Assembly: GCA_022842595.1 (NCBI GenBank)
Contig: JALHPF010000025.1
Coordinates: forward strand, 1 to 64,000
Source of the DNA: Rubrivivax sp.
GTDB taxonomy: Bacteria > Pseudomonadota > Gammaproteobacteria > Burkholderiales > Burkholderiaceae_C
Length of the DNA stretch: 64,000 bases
Direction: 5' to 3'
A program made the position numbers and the translations under genes. Within the stretch, counting starts at the first letter, position 1. Each line of letters begins with the position of its first letter. A model generated the notes under the pieces. That model searched no databases. It saw only the letters and a list, made by a program, of their open reading frames with translations, and was not told the DNA's origin. Below, one piece after another: positions 3,600 through 13,567 of the stretch.

Positions 3600-3620
3600 G
3601 CGCATGTCCGTCACATGCGC
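3600..3620. promoter_or_regulatory. Perfect inverted repeat, candidate operator
   Basis: GCGCATGT, a 5-nt spacer CCGTC, then ACATGCGC: two perfect 8-bp arms. It lies 38 bp upstream of the ATG chosen for the DUF294 gene, in the divergent SDR/DUF294 region. An earlier in-frame ATG at 3604 falls inside the left arm, which argues against using it as the start. A dimeric regulator site is the simplest reading, but the protein is unknown. Confidence 0.5.
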
Positions 3621-3657
3621 TCCAATCAACCCTTGCTTCACTTTCGTGGCTGTGACG

Positions 3658-5517
3658 ATGACACTCTCCACCCGCGACGCCGAACTCATCGCCCAGGCCC
3701 TGCAGCAGCATCGCGTGCTGGGCCGGCTGGATGCGGCAGCCCGTGATGCGCTGTTGCCGCGACTGCAGCTGCAGCACTGCGCCCGCCACCAGATCGTCGC
3801 CACCGGCAGCACGCTGACGCAGCGCCTGTACCTGCTGGCCGCCGGCGTCGTGGCCTTCCAGCCCGAGGCGCCCGACGACCAGACGCCGCCGCTGCAGTTG
3901 ACCGCACCCGACTGGTTCGGCGCCGGCGTCCAGGCGCCGGCCCAGGGCGGCTGGCAGGTGGAGGCGCAGGCGCCGGCCCTGGTGGCCACGCTCGGGCTGG
4001 AGGAACTGGCCGCACTCTTGCAGGCCCAGCCCTGGCTGCAGCTGTTCATGCAGCCGCTGGTGGTGACGCCGCCACCGCAGGAAGCCGCCGACCCCCATCT
4101 GAACCTGATGACGACGCCAGTGCGCGCGCTGCTGCAGCGCCCGCCGGTAACGGTGTCGCCGCACACCCCCATCCGCACCGTGGCCGAGCTGATGCGTGAA
4201 AAGCGGGTGTCGTCGGTGATGCTGGTCGAACAAGGCCATCTCTTCGGCCTGGTGACCGACCGCGACCTGCGCAACCGCGCCCTGGCCGCGGGCCTGGACC
4301 CGGCCTTGCCGGTGCTGGAGATCGCCACCGTCGCGCCGATGACGATCGACGTCAACGCCCCGGGCTTCGACGCGCTGCTGCTGATGGCGCGCCACAACAT
4401 CCACCATGTGCCGGTCATGGACGGCACCCAGGTTGCAGGCATGGTGACGGCCACCGACGTGACCGAGCAGCACAGCACCTCGGCCGTGTTCCTGGCCGGC
4501 GATGTCCACAAGCAGACGACGCTGGCGGGCCTGGTGGCGGCAGCGGCCAAGGTCAAGACCTTGCAGAAACACCTGGCCGCTGCCGGCGCCAGCGCCTACA
4601 GCACCGGCCACATCGTCACGGCCATCACCGACGCGCTGACGACCCGGCTGCTGCACCTGGCCGAAGTGCAGCTGGGCCCGGCGCCGGTGGACTTCGCCTG
4701 GGTTGCAGCGGGCTCGCAGGCGCGACACGAACAGACCGCCAAGAGCGACCAGGACAACTGCATGGTGCTCGACGATGCCTACGACCCCGCCGTCCATGGC
4801 GACTACTTCAAGCAGCTGGCCACATACGTCTGCGACGGCCTGGCCGCCTGCGGCTACGTGCACTGCCCGGGCGAGATGATGGCCATGACCGACAAGTGGC
4901 GCCAGCCCCAGCGCCACTGGGCCGAGCTGTTCCGCCAGTGGGTGGACACACCCGAGCCGATGGCGTTGATGCTGACTTGCGTGTTCTTCGACGTGCGTGT
5001 CGTCGCCGGCCGCCCCGACCTGCTGGATTCGCTGCGCCAGCGCACGCTGCAGCGCACCCGCGACAACCGCCTCTTCCTGGCCCACATGGTGGGCAATGCG
5101 CTGAGCCGGCAGCCGCCGCTGGGCCTGTTCGGCGGCTTGTCGACGCTGCGCAGCGGCGAGCACAAGGGCACGCTGGACCTGAAGCAAACCGGCATTGTGC
5201 CCATCATCGACCTCGCACGCGTCTATGCGCTGGCCGCCGGCCACCCGGCTGTCAACACCCACGACCGGCTGGCGCATGCCGCCGAAAGCGGCGAGATCAG
5301 CCCGCAGAGCGTGCGCGACCTGCGCGATGCGCTGGAATTCCTGTCGCTGGTGCGCATCCGCCACCAGTCGCGCCAGATCGCGGCAGGCTTTGCCGCCGAC
5401 AACTATCTGCGCCCGGAGGAGCTGTCGAACTTCGAACGCAGCCAGCTCAAGGATGCTTTCGGGGTGGTGAAGTCGCTGCAGGACGTGCTGGCGCAGCGCT
5501 ATCGCATGGCGCGGTAG
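3658..5517 (+). CDS. CBS-domain putative nucleotidyltransferase, DUF294 family
   Basis: A 619-aa cytoplasmic protein with four parts. A cyclic-nucleotide-binding-like N-terminal domain (about 1-140) is followed by a CBS pair (about 155-275). Next is a DUF294 nucleotidyltransferase domain whose signature starts at residue 352 (GSQARHE, then SDQDN). A DUF294 C-terminal helical domain (about 490-619) completes it. CBS pairs usually bind adenine nucleotides, so energy-state sensing is plausible but unproven. In proteobacteria these genes often neighbour acetate symporters, DnaQ-like exonucleases and SSS histidine kinases, and all of these are within 13 kb here. ATG 3658 is preferred over 3604, which lies in a palindrome and adds a poorly conserved leader. 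Confidence 0.85.
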   Translation: MTLSTRDAELIAQALQQHRVLGRLDAAARDALLPRLQLQHCARHQIVATGSTLTQRLYLLAAGVVAFQPEAPDDQTPPLQLTAPDWFGAGVQAPAQGGWQVEAQAPALVATLGLEELAALLQAQPWLQLFMQPLVVTPPPQEAADPHLNLMTTPVRALLQRPPVTVSPHTPIRTVAELMREKRVSSVMLVEQGHLFGLVTDRDLRNRALAAGLDPALPVLEIATVAPMTIDVNAPGFDALLLMARHNIHHVPVMDGTQVAGMVTATDVTEQHSTSAVFLAGDVHKQTTLAGLVAAAAKVKTLQKHLAAAGASAYSTGHIVTAITDALTTRLLHLAEVQLGPAPVDFAWVAAGSQARHEQTAKSDQDNCMVLDDAYDPAVHGDYFKQLATYVCDGLAACGYVHCPGEMMAMTDKWRQPQRHWAELFRQWVDTPEPMALMLTCVFFDVRVVAGRPDLLDSLRQRTLQRTRDNRLFLAHMVGNALSRQPPLGLFGGLSTLRSGEHKGTLDLKQTGIVPIIDLARVYALAAGHPAVNTHDRLAHAAESGEISPQSVRDLRDALEFLSLVRIRHQSRQIAAGFAADNYLRPEELSNFERSQLKDAFGVVKSLQDVLAQRYRMAR

Positions 5518-5635: not shown

Positions 5636-7834
5636 TCAGTAGCTCAGCCGCGCGTAGTAGGTCTTTTGCGCCGCCTCACGCGCCTGCCCCAGGGTGTGGA
5701 TGCCTTGCGCGGCCAGCAGCGGCAGCAGGTGCAGGAAGACTTCGGCCGTCACCCGCGCGTCGCCCAGCGCGGTGTGGCGGCCGACGACGGTGACGCCGAA
5801 GCGCTCGGCAATCGCCTCCAGCCGGTGGGATTCCTGCTGCGGGTGCACCACGGCCGACAGCAGCAGGGTGTCCAGCACCGGTTGGTCGAAGCGCAGGCCG
5901 GTGGCTTCTTCCTTCAGCTGCAGGAAGCGCATGTCGAAGGCCGCGTTGTGGGCCACCAGCACGGTGTCGGCAGCGAAGGCATGGAAGGCGGGCAGCACAC
6001 GCGTGATGGTCGGCTTGCCCTGCACCATCTCGGGCGTGATGCCGTGGATGGGGATGCCGGCCGCAGGGATGCTGCGCTGCGGATCGACCAGCTGCTCGAA
6101 GCTTTCGTGCTGCAACAGCCGGCCGCCGACCACGCGCACTGCGCCGATCTGGATGATCTCGTCGCCCTGCTGCGGCGCCAGGCCCGTGGTCTCGGTGTCG
6201 AAGACGGTGAAGCGCAGGCTGGCCAGCGGCTGCTCGTCGAGAGCGCGCGTGCTTTCACTGGTGCCGAACAGGTTGAAGTCGTAGAACTCGGGGCGGCTGT
6301 CGCTGGCCGCCAGTGCCGGGGCTTCGGCATCGCCGCCGGCGGCAGACTCGGCCAGCGGCAGCAGGAAGCGAAAGAACTGCTGCTGGTGCGAGCGGTCGCG
6401 TTCGAACCAGAACTCGCCGCCGTGGCGCTGCACGACGTCGTGCACGCTCAGCGAGCTGAGTTCGCGGCTGTCGCCTGGCTGGCGCATGCCTTCACTTTCC
6501 CAGGCCATCACCGTTTCGGTGCTCATCGGCAGGCTCGGCCAGACGAGGTCGAGCTGGGCGCGCGGGCCGGCACGCTGCAGACGCAGTTGCACCGCAGGCA
6601 CTTCGAAGTCTTCGAAGAGGCGGCCCGCCAGGTGCGTCAAGGCCTGCAGCAAGGCATAGCTGTCGAGCTTCAGCCACAGCGCGGCCTCGACCTCCAGCGC
6701 ACTGGCGCGCTGCCCGGTGGCCGCGCTGATGCGTGCCAGCGCTGCCGCCACCAGGTCGCTGCCCAGCATGTCCTCCAGCGGCCAGCGGCTGCGGCTTTGC
6801 TGGGTGCTGCGGGCGGCGGCGTCGTTCAGTCGCGCGGCCATCTGCCGGGCTTCGTCGCGCACCACGGTCAGGAAACGCTCGCGCTGCGCGTCGTCGAGAT
6901 CGGGGGTGGCCAGCAGCTCCACGGCGGCCTGCAGGTTGCCCAGGGCAGCGCGGCTGCCTTCGGTCAGGTCCTGCAAGAGCTGGTCCTGCGCGCTGTCGCG
7001 CTCGTAATCACGCGTGATGTTGTCCAGCACCAGCACATAACCGCCCAGCACGGGGCCAGCGTCGGGGGCGGCGTTGGCGAGGTCGCGCACCGCAGCCATC
7101 TGCACCCGCAGCAGCTGCCCGCCGCGGGTGACGGTGACGAACTGCGCCGCGGGGCTGGCCGCCCCGCGCTCCAGACGCTGGCGGATGTTGTCCAGGGCAT
7201 GGTCCAGCAGGGCAGGATCGAGCACGGTATGGATCGACCGGCCCAGGCCCATCAGTTCGGCGCCGCCTGCCACGCCGGGCTCGCTGGACAAGGCCTTGAA
7301 CTGCAGGCGCGCGCGCTGGTTGTAGAGCAGCACGCGGCCGTCGAGGTTGCAGACCACCACGCTCTGCGTCAGTTCGGCCATCAGCGCCGCCAGGCGGCTG
7401 CGTTCCTGTTCGATGCCGCGGCTGGCCTCGGCCACCCGGCTGCCCATCTCTGCACGCAACTGCTCACGCTGCGCCACCAGCGCATTGAAGGCAGCCGCCA
7501 GACCCTGCATGGCAGCCGTGCCCTGGCCCTGCAGCTGCAGCTTCGCGTCGGTGTCCACCAGCACCCTGGCTTGCTCCAGCAGCCTGGCCGGCGGCGCGAC
7601 ATGGCGCCGGTAGAACGCTTGCACCGCGGCAGCGACGGCAGCCACGGCCACGGCCACCATCATGAAAAGCAGCGCCACGCGCGGGCCCAGCAGGTCCCGG
7701 GCCGTGGTGAGCTCGGCGGGCGAGAGCGTGGACGACAACAAGGCCCAGGTCAGCCCCAGCCACACGCCCAGGCCCAGGGCCGCCGCGCCCGTGCCGAGGG
7801 CCAGCGCCTTGACGAAGGCAGCGTCACGCTTCAT
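5636..7834 (-). CDS. Membrane sensor-like protein fused to a 3'-5' exonuclease (DnaQ/PolIII-epsilon type)
   Basis: A 732-aa fusion. The N-terminus has two membrane helices (about 10-32 and 50-72), followed by a HAMP-like linker and a PAS-like region (about 145-260). A dimerisation-helix region (about 285-345) follows in which the kinase H-box is replaced by LTEGSRAALGN, so no phosphorylatable His is visible. A degenerate ATPase-like part follows. The C-terminal 190 residues are a DEDDh exonuclease: FDTETTG near residue 545, HNAAFD near 632, and HTALGDAR near 692. The exonuclease motifs are intact while the kinase appears dead. It overlaps the response-regulator gene upstream by 4 nt (ATGA), so translation is coupled. 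Role unknown; the catalytic class is clear. Confidence 0.85.
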   Translation of the reverse strand: MKRDAAFVKALALGTGAAALGLGVWLGLTWALLSSTLSPAELTTARDLLGPRVALLFMMVAVAVAAVAAAVQAFYRRHVAPPARLLEQARVLVDTDAKLQLQGQGTAAMQGLAAAFNALVAQREQLRAEMGSRVAEASRGIEQERSRLAALMAELTQSVVVCNLDGRVLLYNQRARLQFKALSSEPGVAGGAELMGLGRSIHTVLDPALLDHALDNIRQRLERGAASPAAQFVTVTRGGQLLRVQMAAVRDLANAAPDAGPVLGGYVLVLDNITRDYERDSAQDQLLQDLTEGSRAALGNLQAAVELLATPDLDDAQRERFLTVVRDEARQMAARLNDAAARSTQQSRSRWPLEDMLGSDLVAAALARISAATGQRASALEVEAALWLKLDSYALLQALTHLAGRLFEDFEVPAVQLRLQRAGPRAQLDLVWPSLPMSTETVMAWESEGMRQPGDSRELSSLSVHDVVQRHGGEFWFERDRSHQQQFFRFLLPLAESAAGGDAEAPALAASDSRPEFYDFNLFGTSESTRALDEQPLASLRFTVFDTETTGLAPQQGDEIIQIGAVRVVGGRLLQHESFEQLVDPQRSIPAAGIPIHGITPEMVQGKPTITRVLPAFHAFAADTVLVAHNAAFDMRFLQLKEEATGLRFDQPVLDTLLLSAVVHPQQESHRLEAIAERFGVTVVGRHTALGDARVTAEVFLHLLPLLAAQGIHTLGQAREAAQKTYYARLSY

Positions 7835-8229
7835 CGGCCACCCGCGGCGCCAGCGGCGGGGCCTTCGGCCAGCAGTGCCGCCACCTTGTCGGCCAGCTCA
7901 CGCGTCGAGAACGGCTTGGTCATGTAGGCGTTGGCGCCCAGCGCCAGACCCTTGACGACATCGGTCTCGCGGCCCTTGGCGGTGAGCATCAGGATGAGCG
8001 TGTGCTTCAGGGCTTCGTCCAGCCGCACTTCCTGGCAGACCTCGAACCCGGTCTTCTTCGGCATCATCACGTCGAGCAGAACCAGGCGCGGGTGTTCGCG
8101 GCGCAGCAGGTCCAGCGCTTCCTGGCCGTCGCGCGCCACGTGCACGTCGTAGCCCTCGCGCTTCATCAGGAATTCGAGCGAGATCAGGATGTTCGGCTCG
8201 TCGTCGGCGATCAGGATCTTGGTCTTCAT
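7831..8229 (-). CDS. Single-domain response regulator (REC)
   Basis: 132 aa consisting of one receiver domain and nothing else. The acidic pair DD(E) is at residues 9-11, the phospho-acceptor is Asp53 (LLDVMMPKKTG), the conserved Thr is at 83 and the Lys at 105 (MTKPF). There is no DNA-binding output domain, so it must act by protein contact or phosphotransfer. Start ATG 8229 overlaps the histidine kinase stop by 4 nt, and the gene overlaps the exonuclease fusion by 4 nt at its other end. An in-frame upstream extension to 8286 lies inside the kinase gene and is rejected. Confidence 0.9.
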   Translation of the reverse strand: MKTKILIADDEPNILISLEFLMKREGYDVHVARDGQEALDLLRREHPRLVLLDVMMPKKTGFEVCQEVRLDEALKHTLILMLTAKGRETDVVKGLALGANAYMTKPFSTRELADKVAALLAEGPAAGAAGGR

Positions 8230-10916
8230 CGCTTGTCTCCGGGATTCGTCTCTTTTTGCTGCCAGGGTAGGCTGAATTCGAAGCACGCGCCTTGCGTTGT
8301 GTCAGAACGCAGCACGATGCGGCCGCCAAAGTGCTCGACGATCTGGCGGCTGATCGGCAGGCCCAGGCCGGTTCCGGCCGGTCGTTGGCCTGGGTCACCA
8401 CCTTGCTGGAAGCGCTCGAAGATGCGGGCACGCTGCTCGGGCGGCACACCCGGGCCGTTGTCCTGCACCTGAACGGTGGCCGTGTCGGCATCGGCCCGCA
8501 GGCGCAGCGTGATGAGCCCGCCCGGCCGGGGCACGAACTTGGCCGCATTGCCCAGCAGGTTCAGCAGCACCTGCATCAGGCGGTCGGCGTCGGCACGCAG
8601 CGGTGGCAGCTGCTCGGGCAGTTCCAGCCGCAGCTGCGTGCCCTGCTCGTGCAGCGCCGCGGCCATGGCCTGCGCCGCCTGTTCACACAGGGCGCGCAGG
8701 TCGCAGTCGCTGTTGTGCCACTCGGCGTGGCCGCTCTCGATCTTCGCCAGGTCCAGCACCTGGTTGACCAGGCGCGACAGGCGCTCGGTCTCGGCCACGA
8801 CGATGCCCAGGAACTGCTGGCGCTGGGCCAGGTCCATCTGCGGGTCGTCGGCCATCAGTTCGGCCAGGGCGCGGATGCTGGTCAGCGGCGTGCGCAGCTC
8901 GTGCGTGACGCTGCTCATGAAGTCGTCCTTCAGGCGGTCCAGGCTCTGCAGGCTCTCGTTGGCGGCGCGCAGCTGGCGCGATTCGTCGAGGATGCGCGCC
9001 ACTTCCTCGAGCGCCAGCGGCTCTTCTTCCACCACCGAGGCCACCATCGCGCGCGCCGACGCACTGCCGATGGCGCCGGCCAGTTGCGTCTCGACGAACT
9101 GCACCAGCTGCGCATCGGCCGGGATGTCGGCCACCTGGGCGACGCCGGCACGCCGCGCGTAGTCGGCGAACAGCTGCTGCGCACGCGCAGCGCCCAGGAA
9201 ACGCGCGGCCAGAGGCAGCAGGTCGGCCACGGCGGCACGGCCGCGCCACAGGGCCGGGTCGGCCTCGCCGGCGGCGCTGCCGACGTCGACGAACAACGCC
9301 GCCTGGCTGGCTTCACGCCCCGATGGTGCACGCCACAGCGAAACGCCCACGTAGGCGCCGACGTTGGCCAGCAGGCTCCAGAACAGCGAATGCGTCAGGC
9401 CGTCCAGCCCCTGCAGCCCGAACAGGGCCTCGGGCCGCAGCAAGCTCAGGCCGAACAGCCCGTCCTGCATGAAACCTGCCGGGAACCAGCCCGACCGCGC
9501 CAGCGATGGCAGCATGAGGGTGTAGACCCACAACGCAAAACCTGCCCCCAGCCCGGCCAGCGCGCCGTGCTGGGTGCCGCCCTTCCAGTACATCCCGCCC
9601 AGGGCCGCCGGTGCAAACTGCGCCACGGCGGCGAAGCTGATCAGGCCGATGCTGACCAGGGCATAGGCTTCGCCGGCCAGGTGGAAGTACAGATAGCCGA
9701 GCAGCAGGATCACCAGGATCGCGGCGCGCCGGATGGTCAACAGCAGCCGCGTCAGGTCGCTGCCCGCGCCGACGCCGGCACGGCGACGGAGCAGCAGGGG
9801 CATCACGAGGTCGTTGCAGACCATCGTGGACACGGCGATCGCCTCGACGATGACCATGCCGGTGGCCGCCGACAGCCCGCCGATGAACACGGCCAGGGCC
9901 AGCCAGTGCGCGCCTTCGGCCAGCGGCAGCGAAAGCACGAAGGCGTCGGCATTCGCCGCGGACCCTGCACCAGCGCCGAAATACAGCAGGCCGCCGAAGG
10001 CGATCGGCAATACGAACAGGTTGATGAGCCAGAGATAGGCCGGGAACACCCAGGCCGCGCGCTTCAGGTGCCTTTCGTCGACGTTCTCGACCACCATCAC
10101 CTGGAACTGCCTTGGCAGGAAGACCACCGACAGCATCGAAAGCAGCGTCAGCGCGAGCCACTGCGCATAGGCGAATGGCTGGCCCTGGTTCAGCGTCAGC
10201 AGGCGCTGCAGTTCTGGCACCGCGGCCACGCGGTCGAACAGGTCCATCGGGCCGGCATAGATGCCCCAGGTGACGAACACGCCCACGGCCAGGAAGGCCA
10301 GCAGCTTGACGATGCTCTCGAAGGCGATGGCCGCAACCATGCCTTCGTGGCGTTCGGTACTGTCGTGGTGGCGGGTGCCGAACATCATCGTGAAGGCGGC
10401 CAGCAGCAGTGCGGCGTAGAAGGTGCCGTCCTGCCACCAGCTGACCTGCGCCGCGATCGGCTGGCCGGGCGCGGTGGTCATCAGCGCATAGCCGGTGGCG
10501 ATGGCCTTCAGCTGCAACGCGATGTAGGGCACGATGCCCACCACGGTGATGAGCGTCACGCCGCCGGCCAGCAGCGGGCTCTTGCCGTAACGGCTGGCCA
10601 CGAAGTCGGCGATCGACGTGATGCGGTAGCGCCGCGCGATGCGGATCATCTTGCGCAGCACCGTCCAGGCCAGCACCATGGCCAGCGTCGGCCCCAGGTA
10701 GATGGGCAGGAACCACACGCCCGAAGCCGCAGCGCGGCCGACGCTGCCGAAATAGGTCCAGGCGGTGCAGTACACCGCCATCGACAGCGCATAGGCCCAG
10801 GCATTGGCGACGATGCTGCGGCCCTGTGCGGCGCGCCGGTCGCCCCAGGCCGCCACTGCGAACAGAAGCGCCAGATAGGCCAGTGAAGCACCGATGACGA
10901 GCGAGGGGCTCAGCAT
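8226..10916 (-). CDS. Hybrid sodium:solute symporter / STAC / sensor histidine kinase (CbrA/CrbS-like)
   Basis: An 896-aa membrane protein. Residues 1 to about 510 form a sodium:solute symporter-family core with about 13 helices. A STAC-type linker (about 560-640) follows. The kinase module has a HisKA H-box with His672 (THELRTPLTS), the N-box LLNLLGNAAKF, DNGPGVP and GTGLGLPIS. Relatives include CbrA and CrbS/MxtR, which respond to amino acids or to acetate-type carbon supply. It lacks the PAS domain often seen in the family. It heads a coupled operon with the receiver protein and the exonuclease fusion. The ligand is not readable, but the nearby acetate symporter makes a C2 carboxylate plausible. 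Confidence 0.9.
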   Translation of the reverse strand: MLSPSLVIGASLAYLALLFAVAAWGDRRAAQGRSIVANAWAYALSMAVYCTAWTYFGSVGRAAASGVWFLPIYLGPTLAMVLAWTVLRKMIRIARRYRITSIADFVASRYGKSPLLAGGVTLITVVGIVPYIALQLKAIATGYALMTTAPGQPIAAQVSWWQDGTFYAALLLAAFTMMFGTRHHDSTERHEGMVAAIAFESIVKLLAFLAVGVFVTWGIYAGPMDLFDRVAAVPELQRLLTLNQGQPFAYAQWLALTLLSMLSVVFLPRQFQVMVVENVDERHLKRAAWVFPAYLWLINLFVLPIAFGGLLYFGAGAGSAANADAFVLSLPLAEGAHWLALAVFIGGLSAATGMVIVEAIAVSTMVCNDLVMPLLLRRRAGVGAGSDLTRLLLTIRRAAILVILLLGYLYFHLAGEAYALVSIGLISFAAVAQFAPAALGGMYWKGGTQHGALAGLGAGFALWVYTLMLPSLARSGWFPAGFMQDGLFGLSLLRPEALFGLQGLDGLTHSLFWSLLANVGAYVGVSLWRAPSGREASQAALFVDVGSAAGEADPALWRGRAAVADLLPLAARFLGAARAQQLFADYARRAGVAQVADIPADAQLVQFVETQLAGAIGSASARAMVASVVEEEPLALEEVARILDESRQLRAANESLQSLDRLKDDFMSSVTHELRTPLTSIRALAELMADDPQMDLAQRQQFLGIVVAETERLSRLVNQVLDLAKIESGHAEWHNSDCDLRALCEQAAQAMAAALHEQGTQLRLELPEQLPPLRADADRLMQVLLNLLGNAAKFVPRPGGLITLRLRADADTATVQVQDNGPGVPPEQRARIFERFQQGGDPGQRPAGTGLGLPISRQIVEHFGGRIVLRSDTTQGACFEFSLPWQQKETNPGDKR

Positions 10917-10929
10917 CGCGCAGCGGCCA

Positions 10930-11127
10930 TCAGTCGGCCGAGCGTTCGCTCAGCCAGGCCAGCAGGCCGATGACCAGCGCCCACAACACGAAAAGCGCCA
11001 GCGGGAACAGCGGCAGCCCGGCCACCCGCAGCGGGCTGTCCCACAGCGCCAGCAGCGGGAAGTTGAACATCAGCAAGCCGGCGGCGAACAGCGCAATGCC
11101 GCGTTGGCGGCCCAGGCGGCTCTTCAT
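10930..11127 (-). CDS. Small two-helix membrane protein preceding the SSS-kinase
   Basis: 65 aa with two hydrophobic segments (about 10-29 and 36-58) separated by a short polar turn, and charged termini (MKSRLGRQR; LSERSAD). It ends 13 nt before the histidine kinase start on the same strand, so it is probably co-translated. Small membrane ORFs occupy this position upstream of cbrA in pseudomonads and upstream of acetate symporters (DUF485). An accessory or stability role for the transporter domain is therefore an inference. The ATG at 11127 is the first start that gives a compact two-helix protein. Confidence 0.65.
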   Translation of the reverse strand: MKSRLGRQRGIALFAAGLLMFNFPLLALWDSPLRVAGLPLFPLALFVLWALVIGLLAWLSERSAD

Positions 11128-11378: not shown

Positions 11379-12134
11379 ATGAAGCTGGCGCTGCTATCGG
11401 ACATTCATGCCAATCTGCAGGCCCTGGGCGCCTGCCTGGAGCATGCGCAGCAACAAGGGGCCGCCCGGTACGCCGTGCTCGGCGACATGGTCGGCTATGG
11501 CGGTGAGCCTGCTGCCGTGATGGACCGCGTCATGCAAATGGCGCAGGCCGGCGCCGTGGTGCTCATGGGCAATCACGATGCCATGGCGCTCAATCCGCCT
11601 GTGAAAGTCGAGCATCTGGGTGAGGCCACTGCCTCCTGGACCCATGCTCAGCTGACCGAGGAGCACCGGCAATTCCTGGCGGCACTGCCGCTGACCGCGC
11701 GCCTGCAGTCGTGTCTTCTGGTGCATGCCAGCGCCCATTCACCTGGGGATTGGCAATACGTCGACGACGAGCGCAGTGCAAGCGTCAGCCTGGCCGCCGC
11801 AACATCTGATCCCGACGTGCGCTACGTCTTCGGTGGCCACGTGCACCATCAGGCTCTGTTCTACAAGGGCGGCGGTGGCGGCGGCCTGATGGCTTTCTCA
11901 CCCACGGCTGGCGTGCCCATCCCCGTGCCTGCACACCGGCGCTGGATCGCCACGGTCGGTTCCGTCGGGCAGCCGCGCGATGGCCAGGCCAGTGCCATGT
12001 ACGCCCTGTTTGACCTGGCCCACAGCCGCCTGACGTTCCATCGCGTGCCGTACGACCACATGGCGGCTGCGGCAGCAGTGCGGCGGGCTGGTCTGCCAGA
12101 ACAGTTCGCCAAACGCCTGGAAGAAGGTCGATGA
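11379..12134 (+). CDS. Calcineurin-like metallophosphatase
   Basis: 251 aa with the full metallophosphoesterase motif set: SDIHANL (Asp8, His10), GDMVGYG (Asp36), GNHDA (residues 64-68), a lone His near 115 and GGHVHH near residue 153. These supply a dinuclear metal centre. The GDxVGYG form resembles YfcE/ApaH-like small phosphoesterases. Start 11379 is chosen because it places SDIH at the usual N-terminal position. Its last 4 nt overlap the start of the Ser/Thr kinase-USP gene (ATGA). The pair therefore looks like a coupled kinase and phosphatase, although protein phosphatase activity is not shown by sequence. Confidence 0.85.
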   Translation: MKLALLSDIHANLQALGACLEHAQQQGAARYAVLGDMVGYGGEPAAVMDRVMQMAQAGAVVLMGNHDAMALNPPVKVEHLGEATASWTHAQLTEEHRQFLAALPLTARLQSCLLVHASAHSPGDWQYVDDERSASVSLAAATSDPDVRYVFGGHVHHQALFYKGGGGGGLMAFSPTAGVPIPVPAHRRWIATVGSVGQPRDGQASAMYALFDLAHSRLTFHRVPYDHMAAAAAVRRAGLPEQFAKRLEEGR

Positions 12135-13567
12135 AGCCGCTGGAACCCGGGAGCGTCCTGGATGGGTTCGTCGTCGAGAAGTGCATCCACTCGGGGGGCA
12201 TGGCCCACATCTACCGCGTGCACTACGCCAACGGCGCGATCGACCCCGGCTTTCCGATGGCGATGAAAGTCCCGCGCATGACGGCAGACGACGGCGCCGA
12301 GAACATCGTCAGCTTCGAGGTGGAGCAGCAGTTGCTGCAGGTGCTCACCGGCCCGCACGTTCCGCGCATGGTGGCCGCCGGCGATCTTCACAACATGCCC
12401 TACCTGGTGATGGAGTACGTCGAAGGCAAGACGCTGGAACACTGGCTGTCCGGGTCGGGCGCCAGCCAGGCCCCCCTGGCGCACGAGACCATCGCCAGCC
12501 TGGGCGCGGCCACGGCGCACGCCGTGCACAGCCTGCACCAGCAGGACACCTGCCATCTGGACCTGAAGCCGGCCAACGTGATCATCAAGCCCGACGGTAC
12601 GGCCGTGTTGCTGGACTTCGGACTGTCCTGCCACGCCCACTATCCCGACCTTCTGGCCGAGGAGCTGCGCCAGGCGGTTGGCTCGCCCGTCTGGATCGCG
12701 CCCGAACAGGTGGTGGGTGTGCGTGGCGATCCTCGCAGCGACATCTTCGCCATGGGCGTCATCCTGTACGAACTGGCCACCGGCGAGGTCCCATTCGGGT
12801 CACCCACGTCGGTCAAGGGTATGCGCCTTCGGCTGTGGATGGACGCCAAGCCCCCGCGCGCCCTGCGTCCGGACATGCCGGAGTGGCTGCAGGAGGTGAT
12901 CCTGCGTTGCCTGGCACACGAAGCGGCCCATCGGTATCCGTCGGCGGCGCATCTGGCCTTCGACCTGACCCACCCGGATCAGGTGAAGATCACGGCGCGA
13001 GGCAGGCGTATCGGCGGAACGGGCTTCTGGGAGCATCTCAAGCGCTGGCTCAAGGCCGCGGGCAAGCATTACCAGCCGAGCCCGATTCCCAGCCGCCACA
13101 TCGAAGACGTGCCCATCCTGATGGTGGCCGTGCCACACGGCGACGCGACCGACGAGACACTGTACTCGCTGCGCCAGGCGGTCGCGCGTTCGCTGGGCAT
13201 TCGCCCCGGCGCGCGGCTGGCCTGCGTGACGGTGATTTCGCCCGGGGACACCAGCTACACCGAGAGCAGCAAGAGCGAAGCCCTGGTTCACCGGCGCCAC
13301 CTCACGATGCTGATGCAATGGGCCAAAGGACTGGACCTGGACGACCATCAGACGTCGTACCACGTGCTGGAGTCCAGCGACGTGGCCCAGGCCCTGGTGC
13401 GCTACGCCCAGGGGAACCATGTCAGCATGATCGTCATGGGTGCCGCGACCCACGGCCTGCAGATGCAGCGTTTCGTGGCCACCATCCCCATCAAGGTGGC
13501 CATGGAGGCGCCTTGCACCGTCATCCTGGTCAAGCAGCAGTTGCCATTCGACCAGCTCGCGCGCTGA
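12131..13567 (+). CDS. Ser/Thr protein kinase fused to a universal stress protein (UspA) domain
   Basis: 478 aa, soluble. Residues about 10-290 form a Hanks-type kinase: glycine-rich HSGGMAH, ATP-binding Lys46 (AMKVP), catalytic loop HLDLKPAN with Asp144 and Lys146, and DFG at 162-164. The Arg of the usual HRD is Leu, so it is a non-RD kinase and may not need activation-loop phosphorylation. Residues about 325-475 are a UspA-like domain with MGAATHG followed by VAMEAPCTVILVK. The terminal Gly-Ser of the ATP-binding signature seems absent. No transmembrane segment or PASTA repeats are present. Translation is coupled to the upstream phosphatase. Confidence 0.88.
   Translation: MKPLEPGSVLDGFVVEKCIHSGGMAHIYRVHYANGAIDPGFPMAMKVPRMTADDGAENIVSFEVEQQLLQVLTGPHVPRMVAAGDLHNMPYLVMEYVEGKTLEHWLSGSGASQAPLAHETIASLGAATAHAVHSLHQQDTCHLDLKPANVIIKPDGTAVLLDFGLSCHAHYPDLLAEELRQAVGSPVWIAPEQVVGVRGDPRSDIFAMGVILYELATGEVPFGSPTSVKGMRLRLWMDAKPPRALRPDMPEWLQEVILRCLAHEAAHRYPSAAHLAFDLTHPDQVKITARGRRIGGTGFWEHLKRWLKAAGKHYQPSPIPSRHIEDVPILMVAVPHGDATDETLYSLRQAVARSLGIRPGARLACVTVISPGDTSYTESSKSEALVHRRHLTMLMQWAKGLDLDDHQTSYHVLESSDVAQALVRYAQGNHVSMIVMGAATHGLQMQRFVATIPIKVAMEAPCTVILVKQQLPFDQLAR

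Follow-up and report, generated by a model that had tools for sequence, protein, structure and literature searches.

Two-component systems mostly act through transcription factors or second-messenger enzymes. The locus described here lies in a 64,000-nucleotide stretch of DNA from Rubrivivax sp. (assembly GCA_022842595.1, contig JALHPF010000025.1, positions 1 to 64,000; the whole stretch is referred to as the window) and encodes an SSS (SLC5) histidine kinase, a receiver-only response regulator and a 732-aa protein in which a histidine kinase-like membrane sensor is joined to a DEDDh exonuclease (referred to as the fusion). The helical hairpin of the fusion that corresponds to the DHp domain of a kinase, here termed the pseudo-DHp, resembles the DHp of the SSS kinase encoded next to it and decays in relatives whose genomes lack the kinase and the receiver. 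Based on sequence comparison and on analogy with described pseudokinases we propose, with a probability of roughly 0.55, that the local output of this two-component system is a receiver-gated nuclease and not a transcription factor, the phosphorylated receiver docking on the pseudo-DHp.

The SSS kinase places the locus close to CrbS/R (MxtR/ErdR), CbrA/B and RpuS/R, which it resembles in the SLC5-type sensor kinase, the presumed connection with acetate/pyruvate use and the symporter (PMC9927547, PMC5715377, PMC9100948). For Pseudomonas, SSS/STAC control of a nuclease has been published before. In P. putida PP_0353, a putative exonuclease with an RNase_T domain, shares an operon with PP_0354, which encodes a CBS protein, and the promoter of PP_0354 is bound by ErdR from the SSS/STAC system MxtR/ErdR. 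The SSS/STAC regulon holds both an RNase_T gene and a CBS-domain gene; the deletion of PP_0353 delayed growth on pyruvate, and its authors speculated on mRNA decay (PMC9927547). By this published description the likeness of PP_0353 to the fusion comprises the RNase_T domain, the operon with a CBS-domain protein, the SSS/STAC control and the pyruvate phenotype. The CrbS/R study furthermore discusses the CBS/nucleotidyltransferase gene pflu5625 (PMC5715377). As far as these accounts describe them, CrbS/R, CbrA/B and RpuS/R have a DNA-binding regulator as output, with the nuclease among the genes under regulation, whereas in the present locus the receiver is without any other domain and the nuclease itself carries a docking-like copy of the kinase DHp.

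The second described model is the DivL/DivK/CckA system of Caulobacter. DivL is a kinase-dead histidine kinase which binds DivK~P via its DHp, and the exchange R553A weakens this binding (PMC4211667). The fusion shares with DivL the PAS domains, the replaced phospho-His, the Arg retained at position +3 and the receiver-only partner; R553 of DivL, three residues after the lost His, corresponds in position to R295 of the fusion (PMC4211667). In contrast, DivL acts on another kinase and its His is replaced by Tyr, whereas here the pseudokinase is fused to an exonuclease and the replacement is mostly Glu, Asp or Gln. The comparison, drawn from the published description, means that the fusion may work like DivL, not that it is a DivL.

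A description of the pseudokinase-nuclease fusion, of its receiver-only partner or of the co-loss pattern was not found in the open-licence full texts searched. New are the likeness of the pseudo-DHp to its own SSS kinase, the co-occurrence of fusion and kinase and the decay of the pseudo-DHp in kinase-negative genomes.

The locus comprises the following features (window coordinates):

5636..7834, minus strand: fusion protein, 732 aa, with two transmembrane (TM) helices, HAMP-like helices, a PAS-like fold, a pseudokinase DHp and CA domain and a DEDDh exonuclease
7376..7831, minus strand: fusion residues 2-153, two TM helices and a HAMP-like/signalling helix (hydropathy and model; HAMP by topology only)
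7019..7363, minus strand: fusion residues 158-272, PAS-like fold (model and Foldseek matches to PAS-containing kinases; no Pfam match)
6791..7015, minus strand: fusion residues 274-348, pseudo-DHp hairpin, the proposed docking site; E292 replaces the phospho-His, R295 is kept
6353..6775, minus strand: fusion residues 354-494, CA-like (ATPase-like) domain without N, G1 and G2 boxes
5705..6217, minus strand: fusion residues 540-710, DEDDh 3'-5' exonuclease domain of the DnaQ/PolC type, all five catalytic residues present
7831..8229, minus strand: receiver-only response regulator, 132 aa, phospho-acceptor D53 (Pfam E 5.8e-28)
8226..10916, minus strand: SSS (SLC5) histidine kinase, 896 aa, H-box HELRTPL intact (Pfam HisKA and HATPase; CbrA 10ed_A)
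10930..11127, minus strand: 65-aa membrane protein with two hydrophobic helices, upstream of the SSS kinase
3604..5517, plus strand: DUF294 nucleotidyltransferase with CBS domains, convergent neighbour (Pfam DUF294 2.6e-44, DUF294_C 4.1e-49, CBS 1.3e-22)

The genes are transcribed in the order 65-aa two-helix protein, 896-aa SSS kinase, 132-aa receiver, 732-aa fusion. The kinase/receiver and receiver/fusion junctions both read ATGA with 4-nt overlaps, a gap of 13 nt separates the small protein from the kinase, and 118 nt lie between the stop codons of the fusion gene and the convergent DUF294 gene. A first-pass annotation, made from the window's letters alone, had given the coordinates of the locus (5636..11127) and the lengths of the fusion and the small protein correctly, and its 4-nt overlaps and the 65-aa membrane protein ahead of the kinase were likewise recovered.

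Nuclease and dead kinase core of the fusion protein

The nuclease part of the fusion matches RNase_T (Pfam E 2e-37, residues 544-700). The DEDDh residues D546, E548, D634, H687 and D692 are invariant in all 63 rows of the fusion alignment, which holds two genes twice, the window's own among them; the retention of every DEDDh residue claimed in the first-pass annotation thus extends to its relatives. Fold and catalytic residues are those of DnaQ/PolC-type exonucleases, and databases name the protein DNA polymerase III epsilon subunit. Unlike these exonucleases, however, the fusion is membrane-anchored, joined to a pseudokinase and, with 118 bits for NCBIfam dnaQ_proteo, below the equivalog cut-off of 222.7. 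Since furthermore the genome has three further RNase_T loci, an ordinary replication proofreading subunit seems unlikely.

At position 292, which aligns with the phospho-His of kinases, the 63 rows contain E (49), D (8), Q (3), M (1), A (1) or a gap (1), and never H, in line with the H-box loss that had been noticed initially. A simple loss is at odds with the His found one helix turn earlier in many relatives (H288 in 21/63 rows, H289 in 14/63; window coordinates 6968-6973), although the window protein has no His between residues 283 and 299. A merely displaced histidine in an active kinase, raised by the first-pass annotation as an outcome that would speak against it, is nevertheless unlikely, given that no row has His at 292 and that the ATPase domain lacked its N, G1 and G2 boxes in the 33 alignment rows inspected by eye.

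The assignment of the PAS, DHp and CA domains rests on an AlphaFold model (mean pLDDT 85.4). Foldseek aligned 431-484 columns of the fusion with WalK and with CovS/VicK-like kinases, the overall TM-scores being low; a second fold search listed the nuclease part only, which says nothing against the kinase fold. A Pfam scan of the sensor part gave no HAMP or PAS match and HisKA only at E 0.09, and a weak PAS_4 match falls inside the exonuclease. Of the membrane, HAMP-like and PAS-like parts proposed initially, the membrane helices thus stand and the PAS-like fold is predicted by the model, while HAMP is assigned by helix topology only. Taken together, the predicted structure and the sequence fit a DivL-like pseudokinase, with a histidine kinase fold that lacks the His and keeps a DHp surface. 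The initial description as a dead sensor holds for the kinase core but not for the DHp, whose conservation and appearance are those of a docking device.

The SSS nature of the kinase is borne out by a match of its transporter domain to CbrA (PDB 10ed_A, E 2.7e-74, residues 8-476), while Pfam SSF did not fire on the 896-aa protein. The segment following the SSS part, a putative STAC domain, matches among relatives. The catalytic core is complete (HisKA 2.6e-18, HATPase 1.5e-28), with the H-box consensus THELRTPL in 100 SSS kinase relatives. The receiver appears equipped for phosphorylation, as D10, D53 and K105 are present in 65/65 aligned receivers, with T or S at position 83.

Pseudo-DHp, SSS kinase and receiver across genomes

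When the pseudo-DHp profile was run on the best 30 of the 58 HisKA matches in the genome, the window's SSS kinase scored 50.8 bits and the next among the other 29 kinases 19.2 bits. On 100 distinct SSS kinases the profile gave 31-55 bits. A profile made from fusions of other classes likewise ranked eight SSS kinases first (seven newly fetched and the window's; 31-45 bits), the rest scoring at most 20. This likeness may reflect descent by duplication, a shared partner or both.

Fusion and SSS kinase tend to occur in the same genomes. Among 299 genomes of the family sample 63 had both, 7 the fusion only, 6 the kinase only and 223 neither (Fisher p 3e-49), and among 250 genomes of the order sample the corresponding numbers were 16, 4, 16 and 214 (p 3e-13); both samples consist of related genomes and are uncorrected for descent, so that the p-values overstate the association. 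The seven fusion-only genomes of the family are 98-100% complete, except for one at 74%. The first-pass annotation had called for a check of co-occurrence with SSS kinases and DUF294, which these counts and the presence of DUF294 at 40/53 loci (see below) bear out, and had regarded kinases persisting without the fusion as evidence to the contrary. Such kinases were found in 6/69 kinase-bearing family genomes, five of the six being just 45-49% identical and perhaps other SSS kinases; the order sample is taken up below.

The pseudo-DHp was scored in 139 fusions, of which 115 have an adjacent receiver and 14 lack one despite sufficient upstream sequence. Of these 14, nine have a DHp score of 61 bits or less and five a normal score. 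An SSS kinase is encoded elsewhere in the genome in all five normal cases, whereas at E 1e-60 none was found in 11 genomes, comprising the nine with low scores, one in which the DHp is deleted (G007) and one with a 511-aa variant (G126). Because the five loci keep a kinase elsewhere, a first regression with adjacency as label was weak (p 0.04). The label was moved to the genome level after these exceptions had been seen, and the family sample was collected afterwards as a fresh test. In this test 59 kinase-positive fusions scored 69-107 bits and 7 kinase-negative ones 4-54 (medians 97 and 13); of the 63 genomes with both genes, three with fragments only were left unscored and that of the window joined at a later stage.

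Pooling gave 127 rows, mostly from the window's order, with 68.9-114 bits in 111 kinase-positive rows (59 family, 13 order, 38 named genomes and the window) and 3.4-60.8 bits in 16 kinase-negative rows (7 family, 2 order, 7 named), without overlap. The set took 33 of the 55 named loci with adjacent kinase, mainly those with even locus numbers; 20 of the 22 left out were readable, and all 20 score at least 85 bits. Rows of other classes stand outside this set, and the clean split is confined to it, that is, to the vicinity of the window.

In a regression on the other domains the residual shift was concentrated in the DHp (z -8.9), compared with CA (-0.1, p 0.31), PAS (-0.7, p 0.10) and EXO, the exonuclease (-0.7, p 0.03). 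Position 292 is E, D or Q in 111/111 kinase-positive but 12/16 kinase-negative rows, and R295 is Arg in 111/111 but 11/16. A FastTree tree was computed after removal of the DHp columns. On it the presence of the kinase and the state of the DHp (threshold 65 bits) each change seven times; seven independent pairs were obtained over all branches and five on supported branches, all five concordant (sign test p 0.0625). The receiver disappears together with the kinase: no orthologue was found in 17/17 kinase-negative genomes searched (where anything matched, the top hit did not exceed 47% identity and 89 bits), the search controls giving 57-65% identity in 4/4. The pseudo-DHp, conserved only alongside its partner, thus looks like a docking site.

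Several observations weigh against a receiver-gated nuclease or weaken the evidence for it. In the order sample 16/32 kinase-bearing genomes lack the fusion, and kinases of this kind can therefore function where the nuclease is absent. The other domains also lose score with the kinase (family medians: CA 183 to 157, PAS 174 to 144, nuclease 309 to 287, TM part 99 to 78), independent contrasts are few, the 65-bit cut was chosen after the scores had been seen, and the pseudo-DHp profile was made from 65 sequences of which almost all are kinase-positive and at least two negative. Arg persists at position 295 in most kinase-negative rows, as given above. Five of the 115 receiver-bearing rows, all of other classes, fall short of the lowest kinase-positive row and lie within or close to the kinase-negative range (L068 49.6, L069 52.9, L067 63.4, L049 64.1 and L063 66.6 bits), and the genomes of L068 and L069 encode an SSS kinase of about 45% identity elsewhere; these rows narrow the claim and leave the family test untouched. 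Acetyl-CoA synthetase (ACS) genes lie near just 14/53 well-flanked loci, which makes the link to acetate partial. Finally, kinase and receiver disappear jointly, so that the data fit binding of the pseudo-DHp to either of the two.

Proposed mechanism and competing explanations

As the DHp decays with the loss of its partner and the receiver is phosphorylation-ready without carrying another domain, we propose that the nuclease is gated by the receiver in its phosphorylated form. The SSS kinase would sense a transported monocarboxylate, presumably acetate or a relative as suggested by the neighbouring genes, and would phosphorylate the stand-alone receiver. In the manner of DivK~P and DivL, the receiver would then dock on the membrane-bound fusion at the pseudo-DHp, which mimics the DHp of the SSS kinase but is presumably unable to take or give phosphate. 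Docking would turn the DEDDh exonuclease on or off, and the PAS-like and ATPase-like domains may add a second input. The nuclease would most likely trim 3' ends of RNA (or DNA) near the membrane, together with the DUF294 nucleotidyltransferase. The first-pass annotation had already suggested a nuclease as the output of a carboxylate-sensing system; neighbourhood, co-occurrence and DHp decay now give it comparative support, while for the functional link itself, namely docking, gating, direction of control, substrate and signal, we infer the steps given here.

More tentatively, and at odds we would put slightly below even, the locus may represent a class of two-component systems with nucleic-acid decay as local output. 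A kinase core would have been copied, killed at the phospho-His and the ATP site and welded to an exonuclease, and the phosphorylated receiver would dock on this copy and directly gate a membrane nuclease. DUF294 may pair with it as nucleotide adder versus remover, tuning RNA (or a nucleotidylated protein) to the monocarboxylate supply and by-passing transcription.

According to the strongest competing explanation, the pseudo-DHp binds the SSS kinase itself and the receiver is not its ligand; a mixed dimer would modulate the kinase or bring the nuclease to the transporter, much as RetS reportedly interacts with GacS. Owing to the joint loss of kinase and receiver, co-occurrence and decay also fit this explanation; DHp hairpins are dimerisation units, and the pseudo-DHp is similar to the DHp of the SSS kinase. 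However, it is the receiver and not the kinase that is encoded directly upstream of the fusion in 64 of the best 80 named-genome loci (with a 4-nt overlap in 30 of these 64). Moreover, all ten receiver-bearing genomes without a kinase in the fetched stretch encode an SSS kinase elsewhere (four just 45-46% identical and perhaps other SSS kinases), so that receiver and fusion form the tighter pair. We regard direct binding of the kinase as unlikely.

Ranking below it, and also improbable in our view, is a nuclease tied to the symporter and to DUF294 in nucleotide addition and removal, whose own TM-PAS part would sense while the two-component genes are mere co-regulated neighbours. The kinase-negative family loci keep the fusion beside DUF294 in 7/7 and beside an SSF symporter in 6/7 cases, a 511-aa relative without DHp and CA adjoins DUF294 and a VC_2705-type symporter, and in the P. 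putida study it was the deletion of PP_0353, not that of PP_0354, which delayed growth on pyruvate (PMC9927547). This explanation leaves unaccounted for, however, that it is above all the DHp which decays upon loss of kinase and receiver. That the dead DHp is a sink or decoy titrating the phosphorylated receiver, with the nuclease as incidental cargo, would agree with the DHp mimicry but is very improbable, since the DEDDh residues are invariant and the score of the nuclease domain drops only slightly in kinase-negative genomes.

If the receiver does gate the nuclease, sensing would be wired to post-transcriptional control in a new way, via a nuclease that is anchored to a dead copy of the system's own kinase, and a docking domain that decays upon partner loss would provide a rule for finding such pairs. 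Many proteins named DNA polymerase III subunit epsilon would gain a testable role and, should PP_0353 prove related, its unexplained pyruvate phenotype in P. putida a possible mechanism.

Distribution and gene neighbourhood

Matches to the fusion were detected in 70/299 family genomes (E 1e-60), in 20/250 order genomes (E 1e-30, counting fragments and a single 511-aa variant) and, with a sensor-only profile, in 33/398 phylum genomes (E 1e-25), 28 of the 33 outside the window's class. Given these matches, a recent or chance fusion was rejected. A scan of named genomes revealed at least 576 relatives among 595 pattern stretches. The best 80 loci were kept for the neighbourhood analysis, with carriers including Polaromonas, Hydrogenophaga, Rubrivivax, Thauera, Azoarcus, Accumulibacter, Dechloromonas, Colwellia, Wenzhouxiangella and Thioalkalivibrio. 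Greedy gene calls missed the fusion in 6/80 loci (gene calling or cut contigs), and the neighbourhood counts were made otherwise.

Fifty-three of the 80 loci are well flanked (at least 4.5 kb upstream and 3.5 kb downstream). The SSS kinase was found at 42 of these, a receiver directly upstream of the fusion at 45, DUF294 at 40, the small protein at 36, an SSF symporter at 33, ACS at 14 and a second nuclease at 4. The module is widespread in Proteobacteria, usually with DUF294 and often with a sodium/solute symporter. Most often the genes are arranged as (ACS), small protein, SSS kinase, receiver, fusion, DUF294, symporter, while several loci from other classes begin with DUF294 and the receiver and end with the kinase. 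Where DUF294 is present, it lies on the strand of the fusion in 38/54 loci. Two symporters, one from a kinase-only region (L188) and one from the region of the 511-aa variant (L200), were typed as VC_2705 family, far over the NCBIfam cut-off.

From the 16 kinase-only order genomes 17 kinase-only regions were fetched. A DNA-binding regulator domain was present in 8/17 (seven OmpR-type, one LuxR-type) versus 1/53 fusion loci. An open reading frame of 656-661 aa precedes the small protein or the kinase in 7/17, the one in L188 being an acetyl-CoA synthetase.

Some relatives of the fusion depart from its architecture. The 511-aa relative (L200, 5289-6824, plus strand), in whose genome no SSS kinase was found at E 1e-60, keeps the membrane part, the PAS-like region and the nuclease but lacks DHp and CA, with DUF294 and the VC_2705-type symporter nearby. 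In L284 (from G007) and L151, possibly near relatives without SSS kinase, the DHp is cleanly deleted and the PAS is joined straight to the CA-like domain. More divergent fusions of full length were G012:C20:330878-333007 (46% identity, a second copy in its genome) and L020 (40% identity).

Free-standing nuclease-like proteins are encoded downstream of DUF294 in L131 (12064-12600), L135 (13166-13741), L141 (13092-13685) and L142 (13100-13693); by eye, the L135 protein has seemingly lost its catalytic residues and may be a pseudo-nuclease. Descent of the fused nuclease from the free-standing one that adjoins DUF294 in Azonexus, Dechloromonas and a relative is not supported, with 24-27% identity where matched. 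Five fused nuclease domains compared share 65-95% identity with each other and 56-62% with the 511-aa variant.

The 65-aa protein, without a match in Pfam or NCBIfam, precedes SSS kinases both with and without the fusion. In P. putida the small two-helix membrane ORF CbrX is located before CbrA and translationally coupled to it (PMC6591292). By position and description the 65-aa protein is similar and, like CbrX, it may act as a small partner of the SSS domain, although here a 13-nt gap takes the place of an overlap.

The small protein is adjoined in the window by genes for a metallophosphoesterase (11379-12134, plus strand) and a Ser/Thr kinase with a universal-stress domain (12131-13567, plus strand). 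Homologues of both were also detected near the small protein and SSS kinase in two kinase-only genomes (L184, L189), and the pair may thus recur in the neighbourhood of the SSS kinase.

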